Shown here: piece by piece, positions 6,234-46,151 of the stretch | Position numbering within the stretch: the stretch's first letter is position 1 | How the letters are laid out: the number at the start of each line of letters is the position of its first letter | Source: Cylindrotheca closterium | Lineage: Eukaryota > Bacillariophyta > Bacillariophyceae > Bacillariales > Bacillariaceae | Assembly: GCA_933822405.4 (NCBI GenBank) | Contig: CAKOGP040000003.1 | Span: 40,109-104,108 of the forward strand | Reading direction: 5' to 3' | Length of the DNA stretch: 64,000 bases | Program-made: the position numbers and the translations under genes | Notes under the pieces: model-generated | The model's input: only the letters and a program-made list of their open reading frames with translations | Told to the model about the DNA's origin: nothing | The model's database searches: none

Positions 6234-7329
6234 ATGGTTGACCGAGGTCTTTTTGACAAACAGTATCACACAGCAGCATCGTTGGTTGGAATCCCGGCGG
6301 TACACCTACCAAGCCAGAGCTCAAACTATTCGCAAAGGCAAATTCTTGGACCATCGTTCCAACCGAGCAACTGGGATGTCATATGCCACAATTCTAAAGA
6401 GTATCAGGAGCATAGTGAGTATGCTTCTTGCACAACATCTGTATCGTTCCACATGTAATAAATGACGCTCATATTGGCCTTTTGCCGTCTCTGCCGTTAT
6501 ACTTTCTCTTGGTATCACAGTTGGAAACAAGAGGTTCAAGATTTGCATTGAAAATCATCTAAGCTCGTATATGAAGGCACCTTCCAGGATTGCCAAGTCT
6601 GTGGTCATCACAAACCTTGTCAACAGCATTAGAGATAGCGCGACAGAACAAGGAGGTGGCGGCTTCGTTCGGTTTGACAGCTCAAGTGGACTTTGGTACG
6701 AAGTTGGTGAGAAGATTGCCCGAGATAAAGTGGGACAAGCCCTGAGGGATGCAGCGCGTCTCCAAAGCGAGAAGCGTAAATCGATAACCATTGACTCATC
6801 ATCATCATCATCATCCTCGTCACATCCTCATCGGGATGATGGTCGATTTCCTCTTGCAGAACCCAGCATCACGCCTTCAACAACTCCAGACAATACTGTA
6901 GCAATGGTCAAACAAGAACGTAGTGGACAATCAGTATTGAAGTGGACCCATAACGAAGATTCCGAAAGGCTCTCACCTTCATCAGCGCCAACGATCGCTA
7001 AGAATGATAGTGGAGCTGACAACAACAGTAGTAGCTTTTGGTTCCGGCAGAACACAACGGCGATGCCCAGAACACGAGGAACTACTCAACATTCCAGCAC
7101 CACCGACGAGGAGGTGATGGCAGCTTTTGCTGAATCGCTAGAAGGAGATATTTCGAGCCACAACCAACGCCATCAACAGCAGGCAAGAACAGGATCACCT
7201 AGCATCATGCTCTTCTCCTCTGAGCGCGTCCTGTCGCCTCTGCCATCATCATCAATACCATCATCATCGTCATTGGAAGGAATCGAAGCTGCTGATGCCT
7301 TGTTGGAATGGTTCGAAAATGACATTTGA
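6234..7329 (+). CDS. DUF6824-like protein, paralogue 1 (two exons)
   Basis: Exons 6234-6414 and 6521-7329, with a 106-bp intron (GTGAGT...CACAG), give 329 aa. The start MVDRGLFDKQYHTA is shared with both paralogues. The intron splits the domain at one conserved codon: exon 1 ends NWDVICHNSKEYQEH and exon 2 resumes GNKRFKICIEN. The domain (about residues 48-140) continues with a helix-rich stretch, GGGFVRFD, GLWYEVGEK and ARDKVGQALRDAARLQ, the pattern I associate with the diatom-expanded DUF6824 family. After it comes a low-complexity Ser/His/Gln-rich tail ending EAADALLEWFENDI. The paralogues conserve that acidic-aromatic end, so it may be a short interaction motif. No catalytic residues or membrane segments are visible and the function is unknown. 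Confidence 0.8.
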
Positions 7330-13022: not shown

Positions 13023-14141
13023 TCAGGCGTTGTCATTTTCGAACCATTCCAACAAGAAATCCGCAGTCTCGAGGATTCCTCCCAATGATGATGATGGCAA
13101 TGCTGGTGATGATGGTAATGATGGTAATGACGATGGCAGTAATACGTCATCATCAGAGGAAAAGAGCATGGTACTAGAAGCTCCTGGTGCTAGTTCTTGT
13201 TGTTGATGCTGTCGATGCTGCTGCTGGTCGTGGTCATCGATGGAAGTAATGTCTTCATCGGCGGATTCAGCAAAAGCCGTCGTTACCTCATTGCTGGAGT
13301 TGTAAGCAGGCATTTGCAATGCATTACGCCGGAACCAAAAGCTACGGTTTTTGCCAGCTCTTGGATGAGTGTCCTCGTTATTGGAGGTCGTAGGCGATGC
13401 AGGAGAGAACTTTCCAATATATTCTGTATGGGCCCACTTTATGGCGGAATGTCTCGAACTATGTTTGCCCATTGACACATCATTGTTCTCTCCTCCTGAA
13501 ACTTCTTCTTCTAACTCAAATATGTTGGGTTCTGCAACAACCTGACATTGGCCGTCTTGTTGACAATGAGATGACAACGATGGTGATAAGTCAACAGTCC
13601 GCGACTTTTGCTTCTCGTCTTGGAGACGCGCTGCATCCCTCAGGGCTTGTCCTACTTTGTCTCGGGCGACCTTCTCACCCACCTCGTACCAAAGTCCACA
13701 TGAGGTGTCAAACCGGACGAAACCGCCATGTGGTTGCGTAGAACTATCCCGAATGCTGTTGACAAGGTTCGTGATGACCACAGACTTGGCAATCCTGGAA
13801 GGTGCCTTCATGTACGAGCTTAGATGATTTGCAACACATATCTTGAACCTCTTGTTTCCAACTGTGACATAAAGGATGGGCGATATAGGAGCGGTATCGA
13901 AGGGAACGTATGATGAGCATCATGAATAAAGGTGAAACGAAGCAAATGTTGAACGAGCAGCATACTCACTGTGGTCCTGATACTCTTGAGAATTGTGGCA
14001 TACGACATCCCAGTTGCTCGGTTGGAACGATTGCCCAAGAATTTGCCTTTGCGAATAGTTTGAGCTCTGGCTTGTTGACACCGCTGGGATTCCAACCAAT
14101 GCTGTGTGATACTGTTTATCGAAGAGACGTCGGTCAACCAT
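13023..14141 (-). CDS. DUF6824-like protein, paralogue 3 (two exons, inverted)
   Basis: Exons 13970-14141 and 13023-13861 on the minus strand, with a 108-bp intron (GTGAGT...CACAG), give 336 aa. The start is MVDRRLFDKQYHTA. Exon 1 ends NWDVVCHNSQEYQDH and exon 2 begins GNKRFKICVANHL, so intron position and phase match the other two copies. The domain ends VGQALRDAARLQDEKQK; the Ser/Gln-rich tail ends ETADFLLEWFENDNA. The minus-strand flank (about 14142-14290) resembles the 5' flank of paralogue 1. It carries ctatatag about 65 bp upstream of the ATG, a possible TATA-like element. The inverted orientation shows that the family did not spread by tandem duplication alone. Confidence 0.8.
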
Positions 14142-26729: not shown

Positions 26730-29700
26730 TTAATCGGTATATTCATAAGTGTCGGCCAATAGCGGATCAATGTTGGTGACATTCCCAGTGGGGCCGATCC
26801 GTGCTTTTCGATTCTTTGAATTGGTGGTGGTAGTGGTGGTAGATCGCTCATTATTGAACTTCCAATTGTTCCCCTGAAGCCACTCGGCTACTTTACTGGA
26901 GCATCGCGTCGACAGTTTGGCTGTGGCAATCACTTTTTCTTTCGCAGAACGTAGCTCCATTGTGGCTCCATCCTCCATATATTTCCAATTGACAAAAGAA
27001 AACGATGAACCAGCATTCGGATAGTGTGTAATGCTGCCGTCCTTGTAGACCACAACATATCGTTCCTTCCATAGATAGGGAGGCCAACGGCTTCGAATGC
27101 GTAACCAGCCTTTGTGAACCACACGGTTCGATCCTTCTGGTATCCCTTGTAACTTGAGCACATTAGTAGAGTCAATCTTCCCTTCTAACTTTGTGAGCTT
27201 GTCTTCCAAGCGTGCAATGAAGACATTGTCAGCGTTAGACGACGAGATTGCTGATTTTGCCCTTATTTCTCCATTGTCCGCTGTCATCTCTACCTCGCCT
27301 TTATGATGTTCAATCATCAATTTGATAGGACTTCCACTTCCTGGTTGCGGTGCTGCTACCGACGATGCCAAAGTCCCACGCTTTGTTGTTCCATTGCCCC
27401 CAGTTGCGGCGCTTCCCTTTTCAGCATGCTTCTTCTTTTCACTAAAAGCTTTCGCAGCCAATATGGCATTTTCCTTTTCCCTTTCTTCCATCGACTTCTC
27501 AAAGCATTTTGACCCAAATTTTTCAAAGAGGGGTTCAACAGCAGGGTGCACATACTCATATTCCTTCCCATTGCTACTGATTGCCTGCACAAGACCACAG
27601 CGTTCGAATTTTTCGTCCTTAATGAGAGTACCAATGCCTTCATACGACTTTTGAATCCTGTCTTGATGATTCTTTTTCATGGCTCCTGGACCATCTGCCG
27701 AGGCTGCACTATCGATTCGGTCTGTGAATTTTTCCAGCATCATATCCGCAAGGCCATCTTCCTCGGCATCGCCTCCTATCCCTTCAACCAACAACCCTTG
27801 CATCTCTGAAAAAAGATTAGAAGTCTCCTTCAATCCTTCTTCAGCCCCACTCAATGAAGGGAGGGGGAGGCCGAATCCACGGCCCACTGCAAGTCCTACT
27901 TGGACAATCTTCAGGCCAATCAGAATAGCAGGCCCATATTTCTTGACCCAATCCTTGGCCAATTCAATATCATACCCAATCGCTTTTCCATCTTTTCCCA
28001 AAACGGGTTGAAGCGATACAGGACAAATGAAGCATAGTCTTGCCTTGGTTTTGACTTTTACAGTTTCCTTCATCGTTGACAGAAATCTAGAGAACCGCTT
28101 CTCTTGATTGTCTTGTTCGAATGCTGGAAGAATTATAAGATACTTTGGTTGTGAATTGTTCTTCCCTTGGAAGATCCCTTTCAAAAGATTGTTGGCGGCT
28201 TTTTGATGGCTTAGGACAAGCTTTAGTGATTCGTGGATCTTGGAGAATCCATGTTGCATTATTTGCCGGTTCTCAAGTACTAGTGATTGTGTCTTTCGAA
28301 ACTCTTCCTTTACCACTTCTGTCAACTCATCGGTAGTCTTGCCAGTAAAGAAAGGATCGAGAAGAATTTTCTTCATTGGTGGCCTATCCTTGGGATTGCG
28401 TTTAAGAATTTGCTTCAGCAGTTTTTTTGCCGCATCGTCTTGAATGCTATTCTCAAGAATTGAGTCAACTTCCACATCATCTTGTCCCCAATGGAACAAC
28501 TCTCGCATCGAATTACCATCAGTGATATCATCATCAGTGTTCACTCGGAACAAAGGCTCCTTGCTGCACATCGTATACAAGAGAACACCAAAAGACCAGA
28601 CATCGAACGACTTATCCGCCCCAACCAGCTCAAACATCGGTAAGTTACCTTTTGAGGTCACCATACGTTTTGTTTTAGGTACCATGTTTCCAGTCTGTCG
28701 ATCCTCAAATGTTGTCGTCTCGTCATGTCCCAAAAATGATTTGACTGCATATCCTTGGATAGTGGGGATTCTGCTGAACTTCGGGGCACGCTTTTGTTGT
28801 TCTTCTTCGTTTTGATCTTGGAAGTATGAAATGTATTGTTCCTTCTCTTTATGGTTTGCCAGCTGGTAAATCATTTCAGGAGGAATGACACCTGACGAAT
28901 ACTTCTCACCAGCGAAATCCTCCCCAATCTTCGCAGAAGCATCCATGTCAATCAATACCATGTGCCCATTAATGCGGACGACGTTCAACATCTTCAAGTC
29001 CCCATGGATCAGTCCTTTCTCATGTATGTGTGCCACCGCTTCTCCGATTTCCTTCGCAAGTGTTTGAATTGTCAGAATATCGAGCCGCTCACTTCGAAAG
29101 ATTGTGTCCAAATTTCGATCTCCGTAAGGCATCACCAACACGTTGCAGTAATCCTCTGCCTTGGCACCGTCCTTTTTTAGAAATGATGATGTGCCGTTGC
29201 CATCTTCTTGTAGGATTGAGTCCTTTAGTGATTGGACCAAATTGGCATCGCTCTCTTCATCATGGCTTCGGATACTACCAACCACATATTTCGAATCCAA
29301 TTTATTGTCTTTGCGGCTATCCACTTCTCGGCGAAACTGATCCTTGTTCCGCATAAACTTTAGAACCACAGTCCCACCAATTTCGGCAAGGCAAAAGTTC
29401 ACAAACTCTTCTTTGGAAATCTTTTTATCTTTTTCGACATCTGCCCGTTGGAATAGGTGGTTGATGTTTTCCTTGTCATGTGGAATAAGCTCTATCATGC
29501 TCAATATCTCCTTGAACAATTTCTTGTCTACTTCTTTTCCTTCATATGGTTCATACTTTTTTTCAAAGTAGTCCCTCATCTTAGCATCCGTTGCTTTCAC
29601 TACAACACAAGTTGCCGACTGGTGAATGGGTGGTCCTCTTGCAATATCATAACGACCGAGAAAGAACAATCGTGCTTGAAACACTGCTTGGATGTGTTTC

Positions 29701-31742
29701 GATGCCACCGACTTTGCAACACGCTCGGATTGATCCTTGGTCTCGGCGAGTTGTCGGACTTTCCCGATATCCTCAGTTGTTTTCAGATGGTATATTAACT
29801 TGCTCATGTCGGGGTCATTGTTTCCGTCGCCTACATTGTTCGCCAAGAATTGTAACCACCCATTGCGTTCCGAAATGGAAAGTAAACGCCTTGACCCATC
29901 AACAATGGAACCAATATAATTTGCTCTGACTTGTTGAAGAATCAAGGCTTCTTCCCCCGAGTTCTCCAGTAATTCAGAGCTCTTGATTGGATTGGAAGCA
30001 TAGACATTCACTGTAGCATCCCAATTAATCAAATGCTTTTGATCCTTGCCAAGTTGTGTGTACAATCGAATGCGAATCGCTGGATTCACACTAGGAATCT
30101 TCAAACATTTGAGATTGGGACATTCTTTGAGGACATCCTTCTCGACAACCGTCACGTTGGGAGCAAGGTAAACCTTTTCAAGACTAGGGCAGCTGAAAAA
30201 GGCTGAGAATCCAATCTTTTCCAAAGCGGTGGACTCGGTGGAATCAATTTTCTTTAGATTTTGACAACCCACAAAGGCATATAGTCCAATAGTCTTGACA
30301 TGGGATGGGCACTTGAAAGCAAGGAGACTAGGACAATAGGCAAAGGCCCTTACCCCAATCGTTTTCAATGCAGTCGCCTCGGTAAAATCAATTTCCTTCA
30401 GCTTTTCACATCCACTGAAGGCTTCCTGTCCAATAGTATTTACATGAGGCCCACGCACAATCAACTTTGTCATGGTTTGTTTGATGGTTTCTGGTATAAC
30501 TTGATCTTCGCTTTCGTAAACAAATTCGAGACTTAGGCAGTTGTTGAAGGCACCAATTCCAATATTTTCCAAAGCGGCTGCCTCGGTGAAATCAGTCTCT
30601 TTTAGTTTTTCACAGTCCGCAAAGGCAAAAGTTCCAATAGTCTTTACATTGGATGGGCACTTGAAACTACCAGCAAGACTAGGACAATGGGCAAAGGCTG
30701 CATCTCCAATCTTTTCCAACGCAGTTGCCTTGGTGAAATCAATTTCCTTTAGATTTTGACAACTCGCAAAGGCGGCAAGTTCAATAGTCTTGAGATTGGA
30801 TGGGCACTTGAAAGCAAGGAGACTAGGACAAGCGCTAAAGGCTTGTTCTCCAATCGTTTCCAACGAAGTTGCCTCGGTGAAATCGATCTCTCTCAGCTTT
30901 TCACAGTTCTCAAAGGCCTTCTCTTTAATAGTCTTGACATTAGGCCCGCGCACAATCAACTTTGTCATGGTTTGTTTGATGGCTAACGGTATGTCTTGAT
31001 CTTCCCTTTCGTAAACAAATTCGAAATAGAGACTTGGGCAGTCAGAAAAGGCATTATTTCCAATCGTTTCCAACGCAGCAGTTGCTTCGGTGATATCAAT
31101 TTCCTTCAGATTTTCACATTCCCCAAAGGCCCATGCGCCAATAGTGTTGACATTGGATGGGCACTTGAAAGCAAGAAGACTAGCGCACTTGAAAAAGGAA
31201 CCAACTCCAATCGTTTCCAACGCAGTCGCCTCGGTGAAATCAATTTCTTTTAGTTTTTCACTTCTATCAAAAGCAGACTCTCCAATAGTCGTGACATTGG
31301 ACGGGCACTTGAAAGCAAGGAGACTGGGACAATAGGCAAAGGCTTGTTCTCCAATCGTTTCCAACGCAGTTGCTTCGGTGAAATCAATCTCTCTCAGCTT
31401 TTCACATTCCCTAAAGGCCTCCTTTCCAATAGTCTTTACATTAGGCCCGCGCACAATCAACTTTGTCATAGTTTGTTTGATAGTCTCTGTAATTTCTTGA
31501 TCTTCGCTTCTGTATACAAATTCGACAAATTCGTCAATCTCTTGTTCATCGTCTTTGTTTGGCGACTCATCATCTCGTTCACTTGATGATTCTTCTGATT
31601 CTTCTGATTCTTCTTCACTTTCGTATGATTCACTTGATGATGACGATGACGATGATTCTTCTTCCTCTTTGATCGTCGATTCGTCGTGATCTTGATTTCC
31701 TTTCGATGTCATTTCTTGCACTTCTTGTGTTGTATCGTCCAT
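26730..31742 (-). CDS. 1670-aa BspA-type LRR / EF-hand / protein kinase / PH-domain protein
   Basis: One uninterrupted 5-kb exon. Residues 1-70 are acidic and Ser-rich. About 72-600 hold LRR_5 (BspA-like) repeats (IG--AF--C--LKEIDFTEAT), grouped in about three longer units of roughly 155-180 residues that begin FVY--EDQ-I--TIKQTM. From about 695 a kinase domain starts without a normal glycine loop. An EF-hand loop (D768-V-E-K-D-K-K-I-S-K-E-E779) lies just before the beta-3 lysine (VVLK, Lys795). HGDLK (Asp915), DMD in place of DFG (Asp932) and a DVWSFGVLLY segment follow. A helical region (about 1150-1535) precedes a PH domain (about 1541-1632, KGWLRIRSRWPPYLWKERYVVV). Predicted role: Ca2+-responsive, membrane-phosphoinositide-associated kinase. 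HGD and DMD are variants of HRD and DFG; the catalytic Lys and Asp are present, so activity is possible but not certain. Confidence 0.85.
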   Translation of the reverse strand: MDDTTQEVQEMTSKGNQDHDESTIKEEEESSSSSSSSESYESEEESEESEESSSERDDESPNKDDEQEIDEFVEFVYRSEDQEITETIKQTMTKLIVRGPNVKTIGKEAFRECEKLREIDFTEATALETIGEQAFAYCPSLLAFKCPSNVTTIGESAFDRSEKLKEIDFTEATALETIGVGSFFKCASLLAFKCPSNVNTIGAWAFGECENLKEIDITEATAALETIGNNAFSDCPSLYFEFVYEREDQDIPLAIKQTMTKLIVRGPNVKTIKEKAFENCEKLREIDFTEATSLETIGEQAFSACPSLLAFKCPSNLKTIELAAFASCQNLKEIDFTKATALEKIGDAAFAHCPSLAGSFKCPSNVKTIGTFAFADCEKLKETDFTEAAALENIGIGAFNNCLSLEFVYESEDQVIPETIKQTMTKLIVRGPHVNTIGQEAFSGCEKLKEIDFTEATALKTIGVRAFAYCPSLLAFKCPSHVKTIGLYAFVGCQNLKKIDSTESTALEKIGFSAFFSCPSLEKVYLAPNVTVVEKDVLKECPNLKCLKIPSVNPAIRIRLYTQLGKDQKHLINWDATVNVYASNPIKSSELLENSGEEALILQQVRANYIGSIVDGSRRLLSISERNGWLQFLANNVGDGNNDPDMSKLIYHLKTTEDIGKVRQLAETKDQSERVAKSVASKHIQAVFQARLFFLGRYDIARGPPIHQSATCVVVKATDAKMRDYFEKKYEPYEGKEVDKKLFKEILSMIELIPHDKENINHLFQRADVEKDKKISKEEFVNFCLAEIGGTVVLKFMRNKDQFRREVDSRKDNKLDSKYVVGSIRSHDEESDANLVQSLKDSILQEDGNGTSSFLKKDGAKAEDYCNVLVMPYGDRNLDTIFRSERLDILTIQTLAKEIGEAVAHIHEKGLIHGDLKMLNVVRINGHMVLIDMDASAKIGEDFAGEKYSSGVIPPEMIYQLANHKEKEQYISYFQDQNEEEQQKRAPKFSRIPTIQGYAVKSFLGHDETTTFEDRQTGNMVPKTKRMVTSKGNLPMFELVGADKSFDVWSFGVLLYTMCSKEPLFRVNTDDDITDGNSMRELFHWGQDDVEVDSILENSIQDDAAKKLLKQILKRNPKDRPPMKKILLDPFFTGKTTDELTEVVKEEFRKTQSLVLENRQIMQHGFSKIHESLKLVLSHQKAANNLLKGIFQGKNNSQPKYLIILPAFEQDNQEKRFSRFLSTMKETVKVKTKARLCFICPVSLQPVLGKDGKAIGYDIELAKDWVKKYGPAILIGLKIVQVGLAVGRGFGLPLPSLSGAEEGLKETSNLFSEMQGLLVEGIGGDAEEDGLADMMLEKFTDRIDSAASADGPGAMKKNHQDRIQKSYEGIGTLIKDEKFERCGLVQAISSNGKEYEYVHPAVEPLFEKFGSKCFEKSMEEREKENAILAAKAFSEKKKHAEKGSAATGGNGTTKRGTLASSVAAPQPGSGSPIKLMIEHHKGEVEMTADNGEIRAKSAISSSNADNVFIARLEDKLTKLEGKIDSTNVLKLQGIPEGSNRVVHKGWLRIRSRWPPYLWKERYVVVYKDGSITHYPNAGSSFSFVNWKYMEDGATMELRSAKEKVIATAKLSTRCSSKVAEWLQGNNWKFNNERSTTTTTTNSKNRKARIGPTGNVTNIDPLLADTYEYTD

Positions 31743-33525: not shown

Positions 33526-35241
33526 TCAATTTTTCTTGGGATTGTACGTGTACCCCAAGAAGATCGTCACTTGTGGAATCACAATGGATGCCCCGCTTGT
33601 GAATCGAGCATCTCGTCGATCTACAATCCGACTTGTAGTCGTTGTCGTTATCGAGTCGTCCATAATGTTGTTTGCTTTCCACAGTGCCTCCTCCAGCAAG
33701 GACGTTTTCTCCACAATAATATACTTTTCTAGTTTGGTATACACCGTTTCGACGCACTTGCGTCGATTTATATAGGAGGTAGACGACCATTCCTCGTGAC
33801 CATCTTGCAATGGATTGGCCATGTCCAATATTTCCATCCGCCACTTTTGCAACCCCAATTGATTTGCAATGTCCAGTATTTCTTGTTGGACGATTGTTTG
33901 AAATAAGGCATGAGCTTCTTTGGACACATGTATACACAAATATCCCAGAGGGCTGTTCCCGCGGCGATCCTTGCGACTCAGCAACTCGGTCGGATATAGA
34001 TTCATGAGGGTGCGAAAGAGATCCATGTGTTGTTTACCAGATGCCAATATATGAAACGGTGTCATACCAAAGACATCCACTAGATCATCTGGACTTGCTC
34101 TATTATCATCGCCAGAATTTTCTGCTGCTGCAGCTGCCGACACCAGTTCCTTCTCTGTTGTAGTGGAGGCATGGTAGCACAAGTCGTGAATGGGATACCC
34201 TTGGAATCTCTCCTTGAGAGCTTCGGTGATTTGTCTTCCCGCATATTTCTGTTGGAGTAGTGTACATCCAACAAATGCGCCTTCCTCGAGGTCGTTGAAA
34301 GTACTCGGAATGGAAATGTTCACTAGATTCTTGCACATGTTAAAGACGGCTTCGCCCATTCGAATTTCAGTTGTGGTTGGAAGAAGCTCCACCGACACCA
34401 AGGCAATACAGAAATTGAAGGCCATGTCCCCAATCCAAGAGACGGTATCTGGAATAGCCACTGCCTGTAACGAACAGCACCCTTCGAATACATTCGCACG
34501 AATCTCTTCCAAGCCAGAAACCATGTTGACCTCCACCAACGCCTTACAGTTCGCAAAGGCTCCCTCACTCAGTACGATTACAGTACTAGGGATATCCACC
34601 GTCTTGAGCGAGACGCACATACTAAAAGCATTGCGACAAATATCTTGCAACCCCACGGACAAGCTCAGTTCGACCAAAGAGGAGCATCCATCAAAGGAAA
34701 ATTCTTCAATCCTATTGACCGATGGTGGAATGGCAACCTTTTGTAGAGCCTCACATTTTCGAAAGGCATATTCACAAATCTTTTTCAGTGTTCCGTCTCT
34801 TTGAAAGTTAACATTTACCAAGCCTGTACAATTCAAAAAGGCATGGTCGCCAATCTCTTCCACAGTCGATGGAATGGATATTTCGGAAATGGAAGTGCAT
34901 CGAGCAAAGGCCATGCTTTCAATGGCCTCCAATTGACCTTCCACCAATTCCAGATCATTGAGCAAAGAACAATTGGCAAAGGCAGCGCGTTCAATTCTTT
35001 GAACAGTGGAAGGAATCAAGGCCGACCTCAATTTGTGTTGATCGGCAAAGGCTGCTTCTTCAATGCGTTCGACCACGACTGCTGCAAATGCAAATAACAA
35101 TGATTCTTCAATGGTCAGCACAGTGATATTGGAAGGAATTTCAAAGCGTCTCTGTCCGGTGTAATTGAATACTAATCCCTCATATTGTGTGCTGCTGTTA
35201 TCGTCAGTAGTATCGTCTTGACTTTGATAATCCATTGTCAT
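33526..35241 (-). CDS. BspA-type leucine-rich-repeat protein with ankyrin-like C-terminus
   Basis: 571 aa, one exon. After about 40 residues come roughly a dozen LRR_5 repeats of about 23 residues (I---AF--C--L--V-IPSTV) to about residue 330. A linker and an ankyrin-like segment follow (DVFGMTPFHILASGKQHMDLFRTL ... NSPLGYLCIH, about 385-445). A helical C-terminal region ends in a short hydrophobic stretch. There is no signal peptide or strong membrane anchor, so the protein is likely intracellular. LRR_5 proteins of this layout are numerous in diatoms, where their role is not established; protein binding is the usual assumption. It shares the repeat type with the giant kinase at 26730-31742 but none of its enzymatic domains. 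Confidence 0.8.
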   Translation of the reverse strand: MTMDYQSQDDTTDDNSSTQYEGLVFNYTGQRRFEIPSNITVLTIEESLLFAFAAVVVERIEEAAFADQHKLRSALIPSTVQRIERAAFANCSLLNDLELVEGQLEAIESMAFARCTSISEISIPSTVEEIGDHAFLNCTGLVNVNFQRDGTLKKICEYAFRKCEALQKVAIPPSVNRIEEFSFDGCSSLVELSLSVGLQDICRNAFSMCVSLKTVDIPSTVIVLSEGAFANCKALVEVNMVSGLEEIRANVFEGCCSLQAVAIPDTVSWIGDMAFNFCIALVSVELLPTTTEIRMGEAVFNMCKNLVNISIPSTFNDLEEGAFVGCTLLQQKYAGRQITEALKERFQGYPIHDLCYHASTTTEKELVSAAAAAENSGDDNRASPDDLVDVFGMTPFHILASGKQHMDLFRTLMNLYPTELLSRKDRRGNSPLGYLCIHVSKEAHALFQTIVQQEILDIANQLGLQKWRMEILDMANPLQDGHEEWSSTSYINRRKCVETVYTKLEKYIIVEKTSLLEEALWKANNIMDDSITTTTTSRIVDRRDARFTSGASIVIPQVTIFLGYTYNPKKN

Positions 35242-35571: not shown

Positions 35572-36798
35572 ATGGCTAATATGAACCCTTTCAAACGCCA
35601 CCAGCCAGTGACATCATTGCTTCTAGCGTCAGCGTTGACAGCAACAATTCTGCTGTCAACTCCTGCAAACGCTCAGAATAACAATAATAACAATATCAAT
35701 AATAATGCTGGGCAATCTCTCTTTTTGAAGGAGATTTTGTCAGGTCGTTGTTATGAAAAGATGGTCAATGCTAACCAATGTCCTCAAGTTGTCGGGTCTA
35801 TCATGAGCGTCTTGGATGGTCAATCCGATGCCAACATTGACGCCATTACCAGTTTTGCACCTTATTTCCGGCAGGTCGACATGTCCTCGCCGAACAATCA
35901 AGCTTTGATTTGGTTGACGGGCAATGATGGTTCCTTTGTTGGTGGAAGTACCAACAACAATAACGGCTACCAAAATGGTAACAATAATAACAACATGTCT
36001 GGTGGCTATGGCGGATATGGTAATGGCGGTGGTGGAGGATATGGTGGATATGGTGGCTACTCCAATCAGCAGCAGCAACAACAACAGCAACAACAGCAGC
36101 AGAGCAGTAACTTTGCCTTGCACCGTGAAATGGCACCCGTGGAACTGGTAACTCCCGAACAAACACCAGGTGGATTCTTGATGCACGATCTGGTCTTTTG
36201 TGGTGTGGACCGCAAGAATGATTGCAACAAGATCAACTCGAATGCCTATTCGAGCTTTTGGGCCGCTGCCTATTCTCAATTTGCTCGTACGGCATCTGGC
36301 CGCGTCCAAATTGTGATTGAACCCTATGCCGATCTATCTTTTTTCAGAACCAATGTCATTCAGCAGTTGAATGCCTACCAGGTCACGGAAGTCATTCTCT
36401 ACGTTCAAAATTGTCAAGATCCTACCTATTCGCAGCTGACGGATACCTTTCCGATTACCTCGGTCCAATGCAACGACCAATACAGCGATTATGCCTTTTT
36501 CTTGCTCTGTCAGAATCCTGGCTCTGGCGCTTGTAGCATGCTCAGCCAGGTGGATACCACTGGAGCCATTAGTACCCAACAAGAGGCTGCCATTGAACAA
36601 CAGGAGGAAGACCAACTAGTCTTGGAAAAAAAGACCGCAGAAGGTGGTAGCGGTGGTGGTGGTTTCTTTTTCAAATTCCTTCTCTTTGGGATTGCATGTA
36701 CTTTGGTATACCGTTACATGCAAAAGCCACGCGGTCCACCCCAATATTATCAATATGATAATGTTCCTCCGGCAGAAACAACATCCATGAGGATATAA
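35572..36798 (+). CDS. ADP-ribosyl cyclase (CD38)-like membrane protein
   Basis: 408 aa, one exon. A signal peptide (1-34, ending PANAQ), an N-rich stretch, a folded region, a G/Y/N/Q low-complexity insert (about 124-178, with a run of 13 Gln), a second folded region (180-325) and a C-terminal membrane anchor (about 368-386). The second region follows the CD38/ADP-ribosyl cyclase pattern: TPEQTPGGFLMHDLVFCG against the TLED...WCG block, DCNK...FWAAAYSQFA against DC...FW...F, and C300...C313...C321. Trp114, Glu196 and Trp230 match CD38 Trp125, Glu146 and Trp189. The catalytic Glu226 position appears to be Val262 in an ungapped alignment I made by eye, so activity is doubtful. Active members make cyclic ADP-ribose from NAD. 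The low-complexity insert is unusual. Identification is from memory of the family. Confidence 0.6.
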   Translation: MANMNPFKRHQPVTSLLLASALTATILLSTPANAQNNNNNNINNNAGQSLFLKEILSGRCYEKMVNANQCPQVVGSIMSVLDGQSDANIDAITSFAPYFRQVDMSSPNNQALIWLTGNDGSFVGGSTNNNNGYQNGNNNNNMSGGYGGYGNGGGGGYGGYGGYSNQQQQQQQQQQQQSSNFALHREMAPVELVTPEQTPGGFLMHDLVFCGVDRKNDCNKINSNAYSSFWAAAYSQFARTASGRVQIVIEPYADLSFFRTNVIQQLNAYQVTEVILYVQNCQDPTYSQLTDTFPITSVQCNDQYSDYAFFLLCQNPGSGACSMLSQVDTTGAISTQQEAAIEQQEEDQLVLEKKTAEGGSGGGGFFFKFLLFGIACTLVYRYMQKPRGPPQYYQYDNVPPAETTSMRI

Positions 36799-42860: not shown

Positions 42861-45800
42861 ATGTATCCAATATGCCAGCGAGAATACTTGATGGAAGTCA
42901 AAAAGATTGACTTTCACTTTCGAATTGTGGCTGGTTCCATTGTGATTGCCTGGCTCACATTGATAGGAACTGTCTATCGCTATGCGCCAGCCGATAGCTT
43001 TGAGGCCTTGGACGGCCCCGAAATGTACGCCGCCTGCTTTTCCGCCTCCTTTCTAGGGTTTGGCATGCTAGCACGTTTGCTGAAGATTCTGTGGTTGGAA
43101 ACCAAGCCCAGTCAGAACTTTCGCATGAGCGGCGTGTTGTGGGGTTCCTTTGCGGTCCAGACGGTGGCCATGTGCACCAACGCCTTGATGGCGAGCGGAT
43201 ATCCAACTCCTGTCATGGTGGATCCTGTATTGGGCACTAGAGTCTTTCTGGCTCGATGGTGCGAATGGACTTGCCTGAGCTTTGCACTGACGTTCATTGT
43301 CTGCGGGGTGGATCCCAATTCTGGGGTCAAGACTGGTTACGTCATTGGAGCCTCTCAGAGTTTGTCCACCTTTTGTGGATTGATATTCCCTTTTTGCAAA
43401 AGCCTGGAAACCTGGTTGGTCTGGATGACCATCTCTTGCATCTTGTTCACCGTCATTTTCATTGGACTGTTTCAGCAAAAAAGGACTTTTGGTAGCATGG
43501 AAAAGGGAGCTACAGCCTATGCCATTGAAGTATGGGATCGAGCCAGCTTGGCATACAACCTCATGATGACCTGCTGTGCGGCATGGTCGGCCTTGGTGGT
43601 CATGTACTTTGTGGCAGGAGCGGCTGCCTTTTACAGGCCGGACGATATCCCCGATTCCGCCTTGCCCCTCTTTCAACGAACCTATTTCATCATGTTTTGG
43701 GAAGCCATTATGGATGTCATTCTCAAAAATCTTTACATGAAAATCATCATTCAAGTACACAAGGCCGCCTTTGATGATGGAGAACGAGCGGATCGCCGTC
43801 TTGCAGAACTCCGTCAGCAAATGGCAGCGATCTGGGAATCCTCCAGCGATGCCATTTGCGTGTCCGTGGAGGGCATTGGCGGAGCCATTACCACCATGGT
43901 CAGTCCTGCGTATCTGCGTGAATTCCATGGGGTGACTTCCAAGCCAAGGACCATTGTCTTTGAAGTGGACGAAGAACACATTCGGAGACAAGACTACGGC
44001 AACCTCCAAGTACTTACGGCACGAGAAATCAATTTTCCAGAACTGCCGACCAAGAGCGACTCCATGGTAGAGCCTGGCGTTGGTGGTGCCTTTGGTTTGG
44101 AACACATGGAAATCGGGGTGGACGAGAGTCTTTTGACCTCCCTGGCAGGCATGGTGGGACGTGCCTGGAACCAAAAGAGGCATAGCAAAAGCATGAATCA
44201 CCGACTACTCAAAATGGCGGATGGAAAAAAGGTCTTTATGAAATGTGAGGCGAACATTTGCACACTCGATAACGAAGCCATGCTAATGGTCGTACGAGAC
44301 ATTTCCGAACGGACCAAACGATTCGAAGCTGAAAAGAAGACCATTCTCGAGACTACTGCAAGAAAGAAGGATGCGGAAGCCAATAGATTCACTAGACACG
44401 AAGTCAAGAATGGTCTTTTGGCAGCCATTCACTTGTGCGAGACCCTCAAGGAGTCCACTGTTGTTGCGAATGGACAGCCAAAAGCACAAGAATTGCATGA
44501 TGGAACATCTATCACCACCATTGACCTTCCACAACCGGCTTCCTTCAGCACACCAATCATGACGGACAAACTACAAGAGGTACTGACCGACCGAAACAGC
44601 CATCATTCACCAAGCAGCCAAAATATTTCCATCTACACAGAAGAACTCGACAAGACCCTCAAGACGGTTTTGGATACAATTCTATCGGAGGCCATGGCAC
44701 GTGATGTCATCCATGGTAACTACGAGCCGAAACTGGAACGTGTCGAGCTAGAACAGCTACTCCATACTACAGAAACAAAGCCCGACCAATTCTCCCTCCA
44801 AGTCGCTCCAAAACCAATGCCATCGCTGCATTTGGATCCACGGCTGGTCCTATACATTCACCGAAACGCAGTCAGCAATGCCTGCAAGTACGGAAGGGTC
44901 AATGGACCAGTCACTACAAAAGTGTCCTATGACGAATCCACACAGCTGCTACAAATGGATGTCCTCAATCTTCCCGGGCCGGAACACCAATCCCTTTTGG
45001 AAATGGGGGCCAGCGCTGCCACTCAAGTCTTTGCGCCGGCCAAGAGGCTGCATAAAAAGCAAAGCTCAACTTCGGCGGGAGATGGTGCTTGGATCATGCA
45101 AAAGTGTTCCGAAACATTGAGAGGAAATGTCAACATTCGATTCGAATCTGACATGACTGTCTTTAGTCTGGTCTTTCCAGCCAAGAAATTTGAAGAGTCC
45201 GCCAAACCGGTGCACTTTCAGATTCCCAAACGAACCTGGGGAGTCGCCATTGATGACTCCAAGATTCAACGAAAGCTTCTATCCAGGTTTCTGGCACATG
45301 CCGGGATCGCAGACTCCCGCCAAATCATCAAGGGATATACGACCGAAGAAATTCAAACCTTTGACTCCTTTTTGCTAGACCTCATGGAACGAAATCCAAA
45401 CGACTACTTTTTGGTGGTGGTGGATGAAAACTTGGACATTGCGACCGAGAATGGACCACTGAAAGTCACCGTCTCGGGCTCGGAATGCATCGAACGAGTG
45501 CGCAAACAATTGGATCCCATGCTGGAATCCCGAATGCTCAGTCTTGTTCGGTCCGCCAATGACTCTTCTCAAGATGTTGCCACCTACCTTTCCCGCGCCC
45601 ATGGCTTTGTTCCAAAGGCTCCAGTGCGACCGTCAGCTGTCATTGAGACGATTGCTCCACTCTGGCAGCAGCGCTTCAATTGCTTGTCGACTACAAGTAA
45701 GAGCACTTCGACGTTTGAAGCAGAGCCAGATTCCAGCTCTGGGGAATCATCCATGTCCGATTTTCTTTCACTTGTGGTGCAAGAACTCCGAGCAAACCTG

Positions 45801-46151
45801 GATGCAGTGGACGAATTGTGTTCCGAAGAATCAGACTGTTTGTTGAAGGAGAACTGGCCTTTGGTTTGGGAGAAACTACACAGTTTGAAAGGTGATCTTT
45901 TGAGTCTTTTCAATAATCCAAGCATCGAGCAAGCAGTATCGGAAATCAATTCCATGCGAGGCTTGAACTGGCCGAAGGACTTTGAGTCCCGGTGGGGTGG
46001 TCTGCGATCGCGAATATCTGACATTGCATCGGCAATTGGTTGCAAGAAGCTGGATGCAGACTCACCACAATATGAAGGTGGAAGGAAGAGGTCTCTTTCG
46101 GAGTCTCACCGAAGCAGCACTCCAACATTCAAGAAGCTTCGGTCCAGCTAA
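42861..46151 (+). CDS. rhodopsin-type hybrid histidine kinase with receiver and HPt domains
   Basis: 1096 aa, one exon. Eight hydrophobic segments (about 19-41, 55-79, 91-113, 127-149, 156-178, 184-205, 231-256, 271-298) form the N-terminus. The last seven match type I rhodopsin helices A-G. Helix C has A-R132-W-C-E135-W136, as in the R-Y-A-D-W of bacteriorhodopsin. Helix F has W242-S-A. Helix G has M-D285-V-I-L-K289, the D-x-x-x-K of the retinal Schiff base. The proton-donor position is Ile146, which argues for sensing, not pumping. Then come a PAS-like region (about 315-490), an H-box (RH513-EVKN), an ATPase domain with N-box N669AVSNACKYG and a poor G-box, a receiver (D798-D799, acceptor Asp855 in VVVDENLD) and an HPt domain (H1007-SLKGD). 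Light would drive a phosphorelay His to Asp to His. A second in-frame ATG lies at residue 11. Confidence 0.8.
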   Translation: MYPICQREYLMEVKKIDFHFRIVAGSIVIAWLTLIGTVYRYAPADSFEALDGPEMYAACFSASFLGFGMLARLLKILWLETKPSQNFRMSGVLWGSFAVQTVAMCTNALMASGYPTPVMVDPVLGTRVFLARWCEWTCLSFALTFIVCGVDPNSGVKTGYVIGASQSLSTFCGLIFPFCKSLETWLVWMTISCILFTVIFIGLFQQKRTFGSMEKGATAYAIEVWDRASLAYNLMMTCCAAWSALVVMYFVAGAAAFYRPDDIPDSALPLFQRTYFIMFWEAIMDVILKNLYMKIIIQVHKAAFDDGERADRRLAELRQQMAAIWESSSDAICVSVEGIGGAITTMVSPAYLREFHGVTSKPRTIVFEVDEEHIRRQDYGNLQVLTAREINFPELPTKSDSMVEPGVGGAFGLEHMEIGVDESLLTSLAGMVGRAWNQKRHSKSMNHRLLKMADGKKVFMKCEANICTLDNEAMLMVVRDISERTKRFEAEKKTILETTARKKDAEANRFTRHEVKNGLLAAIHLCETLKESTVVANGQPKAQELHDGTSITTIDLPQPASFSTPIMTDKLQEVLTDRNSHHSPSSQNISIYTEELDKTLKTVLDTILSEAMARDVIHGNYEPKLERVELEQLLHTTETKPDQFSLQVAPKPMPSLHLDPRLVLYIHRNAVSNACKYGRVNGPVTTKVSYDESTQLLQMDVLNLPGPEHQSLLEMGASAATQVFAPAKRLHKKQSSTSAGDGAWIMQKCSETLRGNVNIRFESDMTVFSLVFPAKKFEESAKPVHFQIPKRTWGVAIDDSKIQRKLLSRFLAHAGIADSRQIIKGYTTEEIQTFDSFLLDLMERNPNDYFLVVVDENLDIATENGPLKVTVSGSECIERVRKQLDPMLESRMLSLVRSANDSSQDVATYLSRAHGFVPKAPVRPSAVIETIAPLWQQRFNCLSTTSKSTSTFEAEPDSSSGESSMSDFLSLVVQELRANLDAVDELCSEESDCLLKENWPLVWEKLHSLKGDLLSLFNNPSIEQAVSEINSMRGLNWPKDFESRWGGLRSRISDIASAIGCKKLDADSPQYEGGRKRSLSESHRSSTPTFKKLRSS

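Follow-up and report, generated by a model that had tools for sequence, protein, structure and literature searches.

The window analysed here is a 64,000-nucleotide stretch of Cylindrotheca closterium DNA, in which a single frame on the forward strand runs from ATG to stop at 42861-46151 and encodes a protein of 1096 amino acids (P0001), exactly where the first-pass annotation had read a rhodopsin-histidine kinase-receiver-HPt fusion. The residues on which that reading was built (R132, E135, W136, W242, D285, K289, H513, D855 and H1007) were all found at their positions. The modules of the protein, whose folds are predicted from structure models, are collected in Table 1. After the final module, the last 35 residues (46044-46148) form a basic tail (KRS...KKLRSS) that the model shows as disordered and that is reminiscent of a bipartite nuclear signal.

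Table 1. Features of the fusion gene in the window, and one paralogue elsewhere in the genome
Feature	Position	Strand	Basis
Whole gene, rhodopsin - PAS-like - histidine kinase - receiver - HPt-like	42861..46151	+	intact ORF, full-length homologues, purifying selection
Type I rhodopsin domain of eight predicted helices (TM0 and seven more), residues 1-305	42861..43775	+	profile matches, model, Foldseek, VIA
TM0-like extra N-terminal helix, residues 3-41	42867..42983	+	model helix; VIA alignment to Rh-PDE
R132-W-C-E135-W136 (R-x-x-D/E-W), start of third canonical helix	43254..43268	+	conservation; alignment with Rh-PDE R-Y-A-E-W
W242-S-A, sixth canonical helix	43584..43592	+	conserved W242
D285-x-x-x-K289; K289 the likely lysine of the retinal Schiff base, D285 its likely counter-ion	43713..43727	+	conservation
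Linker helix toward cytoplasmic part, residues 306-327	43776..43841	+	model
Predicted PAS-like alpha/beta domain, residues 331-480	43851..44300	+	model; Foldseek LOV-/PAS-kinase rows
DHp helices with disordered loop in between, residues 512-617	44394..44711	+	model; kinase-fold matches
H513, candidate H-box phosphoacceptor (RHEVKNG)	44397..44399	+	120/120 among matches listed (of 267)
CA (ATPase-like) domain, residues 626-773	44736..45179	+	HATPase_c matches, conserved residues, kinase fold
Receiver, residues 786-940; D798/D799, D855, S898, K919	45216..45680	+	receiver fold
Helical HPt-like bundle, residues 958-1061, H1007-S-L-K-G1011	45732..46043	+	model; H-x-L-K-G motif
Paralogue P0010, Ala at Glu135 position	L022 943-4242	-	

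The genome assembly (47.6 Mb, 572 contigs) contains three genes of this family. The two paralogues of P0001, P0002 (1134 aa, 75.9% identity) and P0010 (1099 aa, 56.8% identity), are exact matches to proteins that NCBI names as Cylindrotheca closterium, which bears out the diatom host proposed from the sequence. Comparison of P0001 with P0002 over the whole gene gave a dS of 1.12, a dN of 0.155 and a dN/dS of about 0.14. Across five modules the ratio ranged from 0.09 to 0.16, with dS near saturation in the rhodopsin part; a ratio below 0.2 in each of them indicates that all modules are under purifying selection. A homologue search (E≤1e-3) returned 267 proteins, the query included, of which 120 were listed. 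These matches and the low dN/dS against P0002 indicate that the ORF is more than a chance frame. A C. closterium transcriptome contains a protein, P0003, with 82.1% identity to P0002 and 71.8% to P0001, indicating that the family is transcribed, the evidence coming from another copy than P0001. Conservation is counted below over the 120 listed homologues (of 267) and over a larger alignment of 135 members, with P0136-P0140 left out of all counts.

Sequence similarity to type I rhodopsins was borne out by a profile search, with matches to bestrhodopsin and Rh-PDE (7.7e-9 and 2.8e-4), and P0001 as a single query matched cyanorhodopsin-II (5.3e-4). Pfam Bac_rhodopsin matched one of 35 family members (E 0.0012); it found nothing in the C. 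closterium genome and nothing in the control genomes either, so its silence in the former is not evidence of absence. The model of the rhodopsin domain (pLDDT 93) predicts a seven-helix type I rhodopsin fold plus TM0, its eight long helices before residue 305 (3-41, 53-79, 91-111, 130-149, 155-178, 182-211, 219-257 and 276-304) agreeing with the eight hydrophobic segments read from the letters. The top Foldseek rows for this model were bacteriorhodopsin, and the best VIA match was Rh-PDE, aligned from residues 17-305 and 12-330.

Lys289, whose absence from close homologues had been named as a point against a rhodopsin, is present in 120 of the 120 listed homologues and in 135 of 135 members of the larger set. 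Among the same 120 listed, position 285 is Asp or Glu in 119, Arg132 is found in 113 of 113 lettered rows and Trp242 in 116 of 118, while position 135 is Glu in 106 of 113 and replaced in the other seven. Position 146, which we take to be that of the proton donor Asp96 of bacteriorhodopsin (counted as R82+14), is Ile in P0001 and Leu, Met, Ile, Val or Phe in 113 of the 114 lettered rows of the listed homologues, with Gln in one; the Ile here had been taken to fit a sensor, not a pump. The alignment lays the DVxxK of P0001 on DVVMK of bestrhodopsin and its R-W-C-E-W on R-Y-A-E164-W165 of Rh-PDE (numbering as in PMC7644710), by which Lys289 and Glu135 would lie in the retinal pocket. According to the available text of that paper, the residue equivalent to Glu135 stays protonated in Rh-PDE and the equivalent of Asp285 is the counter-ion (PMC7644710). 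By analogy, we refine the earlier reading: Asp285 would be the counter-ion of P0001, and Glu135 would be protonated.

The kinase part carries the features of a hybrid histidine kinase, namely the H-box His, the N-box Asn and the receiver Asp and Lys. H513, N673 of the N-box and K919 are each invariant among the 120 listed homologues (of 267), in 118 of which D855 is Asp, in keeping with the H-box, N-box and receiver first recognized by eye; the G2-box glycine G742 is also conserved among them. Of the 133 lettered rows in the larger set, 129 carry Asp at position 855, two Asn and two Ser, the latter (P0134 and P0135) being read as alignment artefacts because these proteins end before the receiver. 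The G1-box (D-x-G-x-G) lacks its Asp: alignment with YycG puts N703 in that place, and all 120 listed homologues (of 267) have Asn there, as do 131 of the 132 lettered rows in the larger alignment. Pfam gave for P0001 a weak HATPase_c match alone, below its cut-off, and matched HATPase_c in 26 of 35 family members; NCBIfam returned general kinase models only, for P0001 a single one far below its cut-off. Foldseek and VIA matched models of the kinase part to kinase and receiver folds. The PAS-like domain, one of the weaker points of the first-pass annotation, agrees with the model and with Foldseek rows of kinase structures that contain a PAS or LOV domain. The comparisons thus establish an intact fusion under purifying selection in which Lys289, Arg132, Asp/Glu285, His513 and Asp855 are conserved.

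The claim that three phosphotransfer modules sit in one chain stands for the kinase and the receiver, the HPt being the least secure of the three. The H-x-L-K-G motif around H1007 and the predicted helices agree with an HPt, but no significant profile match was obtained: Pfam Hpt matched one of ten segments (E 0.062), and a PDB search with an HPt-like profile did not find an HPt chain. As a yardstick, the one stretch of the C. closterium genome matched by Pfam Hpt, within a 1168-aa frame, reached in the PDB only BRIC1 (E 0.059), CheA (0.37 and 0.43) and the ArcB HPt (0.74); since a Pfam-positive stretch also scores weakly, weak scores do not disprove an HPt here. That genome count could miss a divergent or intron-split HPt. 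A second-model VIA list was filled by kinases and CheY, with no HPt row, and is uninformative on this module. His1007 is absent in 14 of 117 rows among the 120 matches listed (of 267) and replaced in 17 of 127 lettered rows of the larger set.

The fusion was found in at least seven named diatom genera, Cylindrotheca, Skeletonema, Cyclotella, Detonula, Thalassiosira, Cyclostephanos and Seminavis, and the family covers Bacillariophyceae and Thalassiosirophyceae. An eighth genus, Corethron, is represented by a fragment that begins in the last membrane helix (P0115). All organism names among the matches listed are diatoms, most rows being unnamed, and relatives beyond diatoms are possible. In the larger set, Gly or Ala takes the place of Glu135 in seven of the 127 lettered rows, and P0010 reads R-W-C-A-W where P0001 and P0002 read R-W-C-E-W, so their colours may differ if pigments form. 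In a FastTree tree of 128 rows, which omits the seven of 135 without a letter at R132 and has long branches and 32 weak forks among 125 inner ones, the replacement of Glu135 takes at least four changes and that of His1007 at least nine. Two copies, P0062 and P0097, lie on one contig of Thalassiosira sp. AJA248-18 under neighbouring gene numbers (ACHAXR_013265/013266), and P0068 and P0093 lie close together in Cyclostephanos tholiformis (ACHAXA_004581/004583); such tandem copies could be partner subunits.

Rhodopsin-kinases are known from green algae, where the single chains of Cop5/HKR1, Cr2c-Cyclop1 and Ot-HKR likewise run from a rhodopsin through a histidine kinase to a response regulator, and where Cop5 and 2c-Cyclop have an eight-helix rhodopsin, as predicted for P0001 (PMC6284317, available text). 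In Cr2c-Cyclop1, a kinase active in the dark feeds the response regulator and output is inhibited by light, and one green-algal 2c-Cyclop is located at the nuclear periphery (PMC6284317). The likeness drawn here is one of architecture. P0001 differs in the PAS-like module before the kinase and the HPt-like end, and no Pfam cyclase domain was found in P0001 or 34 relatives, which separates them from 2c-Cyclop, their chain ending in a helical bundle. P0001 shares with enzyme rhodopsins a predicted TM0, and its chain includes a kinase domain on which light may act; Rh-PDE of Salpingoeca rosetta, however, carries a phosphodiesterase effector in place of a kinase relay, and bestrhodopsin (PDB 7pl9), unlike P0001, has tandem rhodopsins fused to bestrophin. 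The diatom xanthorhodopsin FcR1 is a type I rhodopsin as well, but it is a proton pump of the plastid, and the term 'histidine kinase' is absent from the main text of its description (PMC10627834). Enzyme rhodopsins are attributed to fungi, green algae and choanoflagellates in the available part of a 2025 review (PMC12558739), and the accessible portion of a study from 2018 describes putative type I rhodopsins in a non-photosynthetic stramenopile with no mention of a kinase (PMC5795050). No description of a diatom rhodopsin-kinase appeared among the matches listed from open-access PMC papers, as far as their text was available; an earlier mention is possible. The principle is that of the green-algal rhodopsin-kinases; what differs is the set of modules after the kinase, in a family that occurs in no fewer than seven genera of diatoms.

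We consider it likely that P0001, a rhodopsin-kinase-receiver fusion with predicted PAS-like and HPt-like modules, is a retinal-based light receptor that switches a phosphorelay. The relay proposed at first is supported by the rhodopsin similarity, the invariant lysine and the predicted fold; retinal binding, light control and kinase activity would be its putative working parts. The kinase and receiver folds, the conserved relay residues, the low dN/dS of the modules and the presence of receiver-family proteins in the genome also speak for it. Light would isomerize retinal bound to Lys289, Asp285 serving as counter-ion next to a protonated Glu135, the arrangement described for Rh-PDE. The last membrane helix would then shift the linker helix and the PAS-like domain, changing the DHp dimer, and phosphate would pass from ATP to His513, Asp855, His1007 and a separate response regulator. 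After the green-algal two-component cyclase opsin, we slightly prefer light as an inhibitor of the kinase.

Counting against this reading are the Asn of the G1-box, an HPt lacking profile support, the losses of Glu135 and His1007, and the single Bac_rhodopsin match in 35 members. The Asn703 that occupies the YycG Asp position in nearly every homologue would fit a kinase part that uses ATP poorly and serves chiefly as a phosphatase or scaffold under light control, in a relay fed by another kinase, but the conservation of His513, Asn673, G742 and the receiver residues and the HATPase_c matches make this unlikely. The remote rhodopsin similarity and the lost Glu135 could mean that the fold was kept for a stimulus other than light, or that retinal was lost; we hold this to be very unlikely given the constancy of Lys289, Arg132 and Asp/Glu285. 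Moreover, eight carotenoid-oxygenase matches over the cut-off lie on five contigs of the genome, so retinal cleavage enzymes, and with them a supply of retinal, are possible. A role as an ion pump or channel carrying a kinase is hardly credible: the bacteriorhodopsin rows of Foldseek concern fold alone, whereas the donor position is hydrophobic in all but one of the 114 lettered rows and the best VIA match is Rh-PDE, for which structural reasons against pump or channel activity are given in the available text of PMC7644710.

If the light-receptor reading is true, diatoms possess a retinal-based class of sensory receptor in addition to the receptors discussed for this group, namely aureochromes, cryptochromes and phytochromes. 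For a benthic community with C. closterium, phytochrome-like receptors were proposed for far-red migration and genetic tests called for in 2026 (PMC12783169, available text); a kinase family present in several diatom genera provides genes that could be targeted directly to test light behaviour, and its natural variants at the counter-ion site are material for colour tuning. A bolder proposal, which we regard as doubtful, is that this is a widespread photoreceptor class of the diatoms' own, missed by standard annotation, in which Ala/Gly135 paralogues of one genome are differently coloured dimer partners, so that a single relay would let the cell compare colours.

The genome holds 28 matches to the receiver family. 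Seven ORFs were scanned from eight of these loci; five have kinase domains, one (L019) is a receiver alone, and another (L018, G000:C562:598476-598832) combines a receiver with a DNA-binding domain of the LuxR type (GerE), possibly a target of the relay or else a contaminant contig. Among nine other ORFs of the window scanned with Pfam, four had domains, none of them two-component. ORFs 6571-7329 (+) and 13023-13811 (-) face opposite ways and share their first 20 residues, probably through an inverted duplication. The ORF at 35572-36795 (+) is ADP-ribosyl cyclase-like (Rib_hydrolayse, 3.7e-13) and possibly a calcium-signalling enzyme, and two LRR_5 (BspA-type) proteins are encoded near each other at 26733-31742 (-) and 33529-35241 (-), the larger also having a protein-kinase domain.
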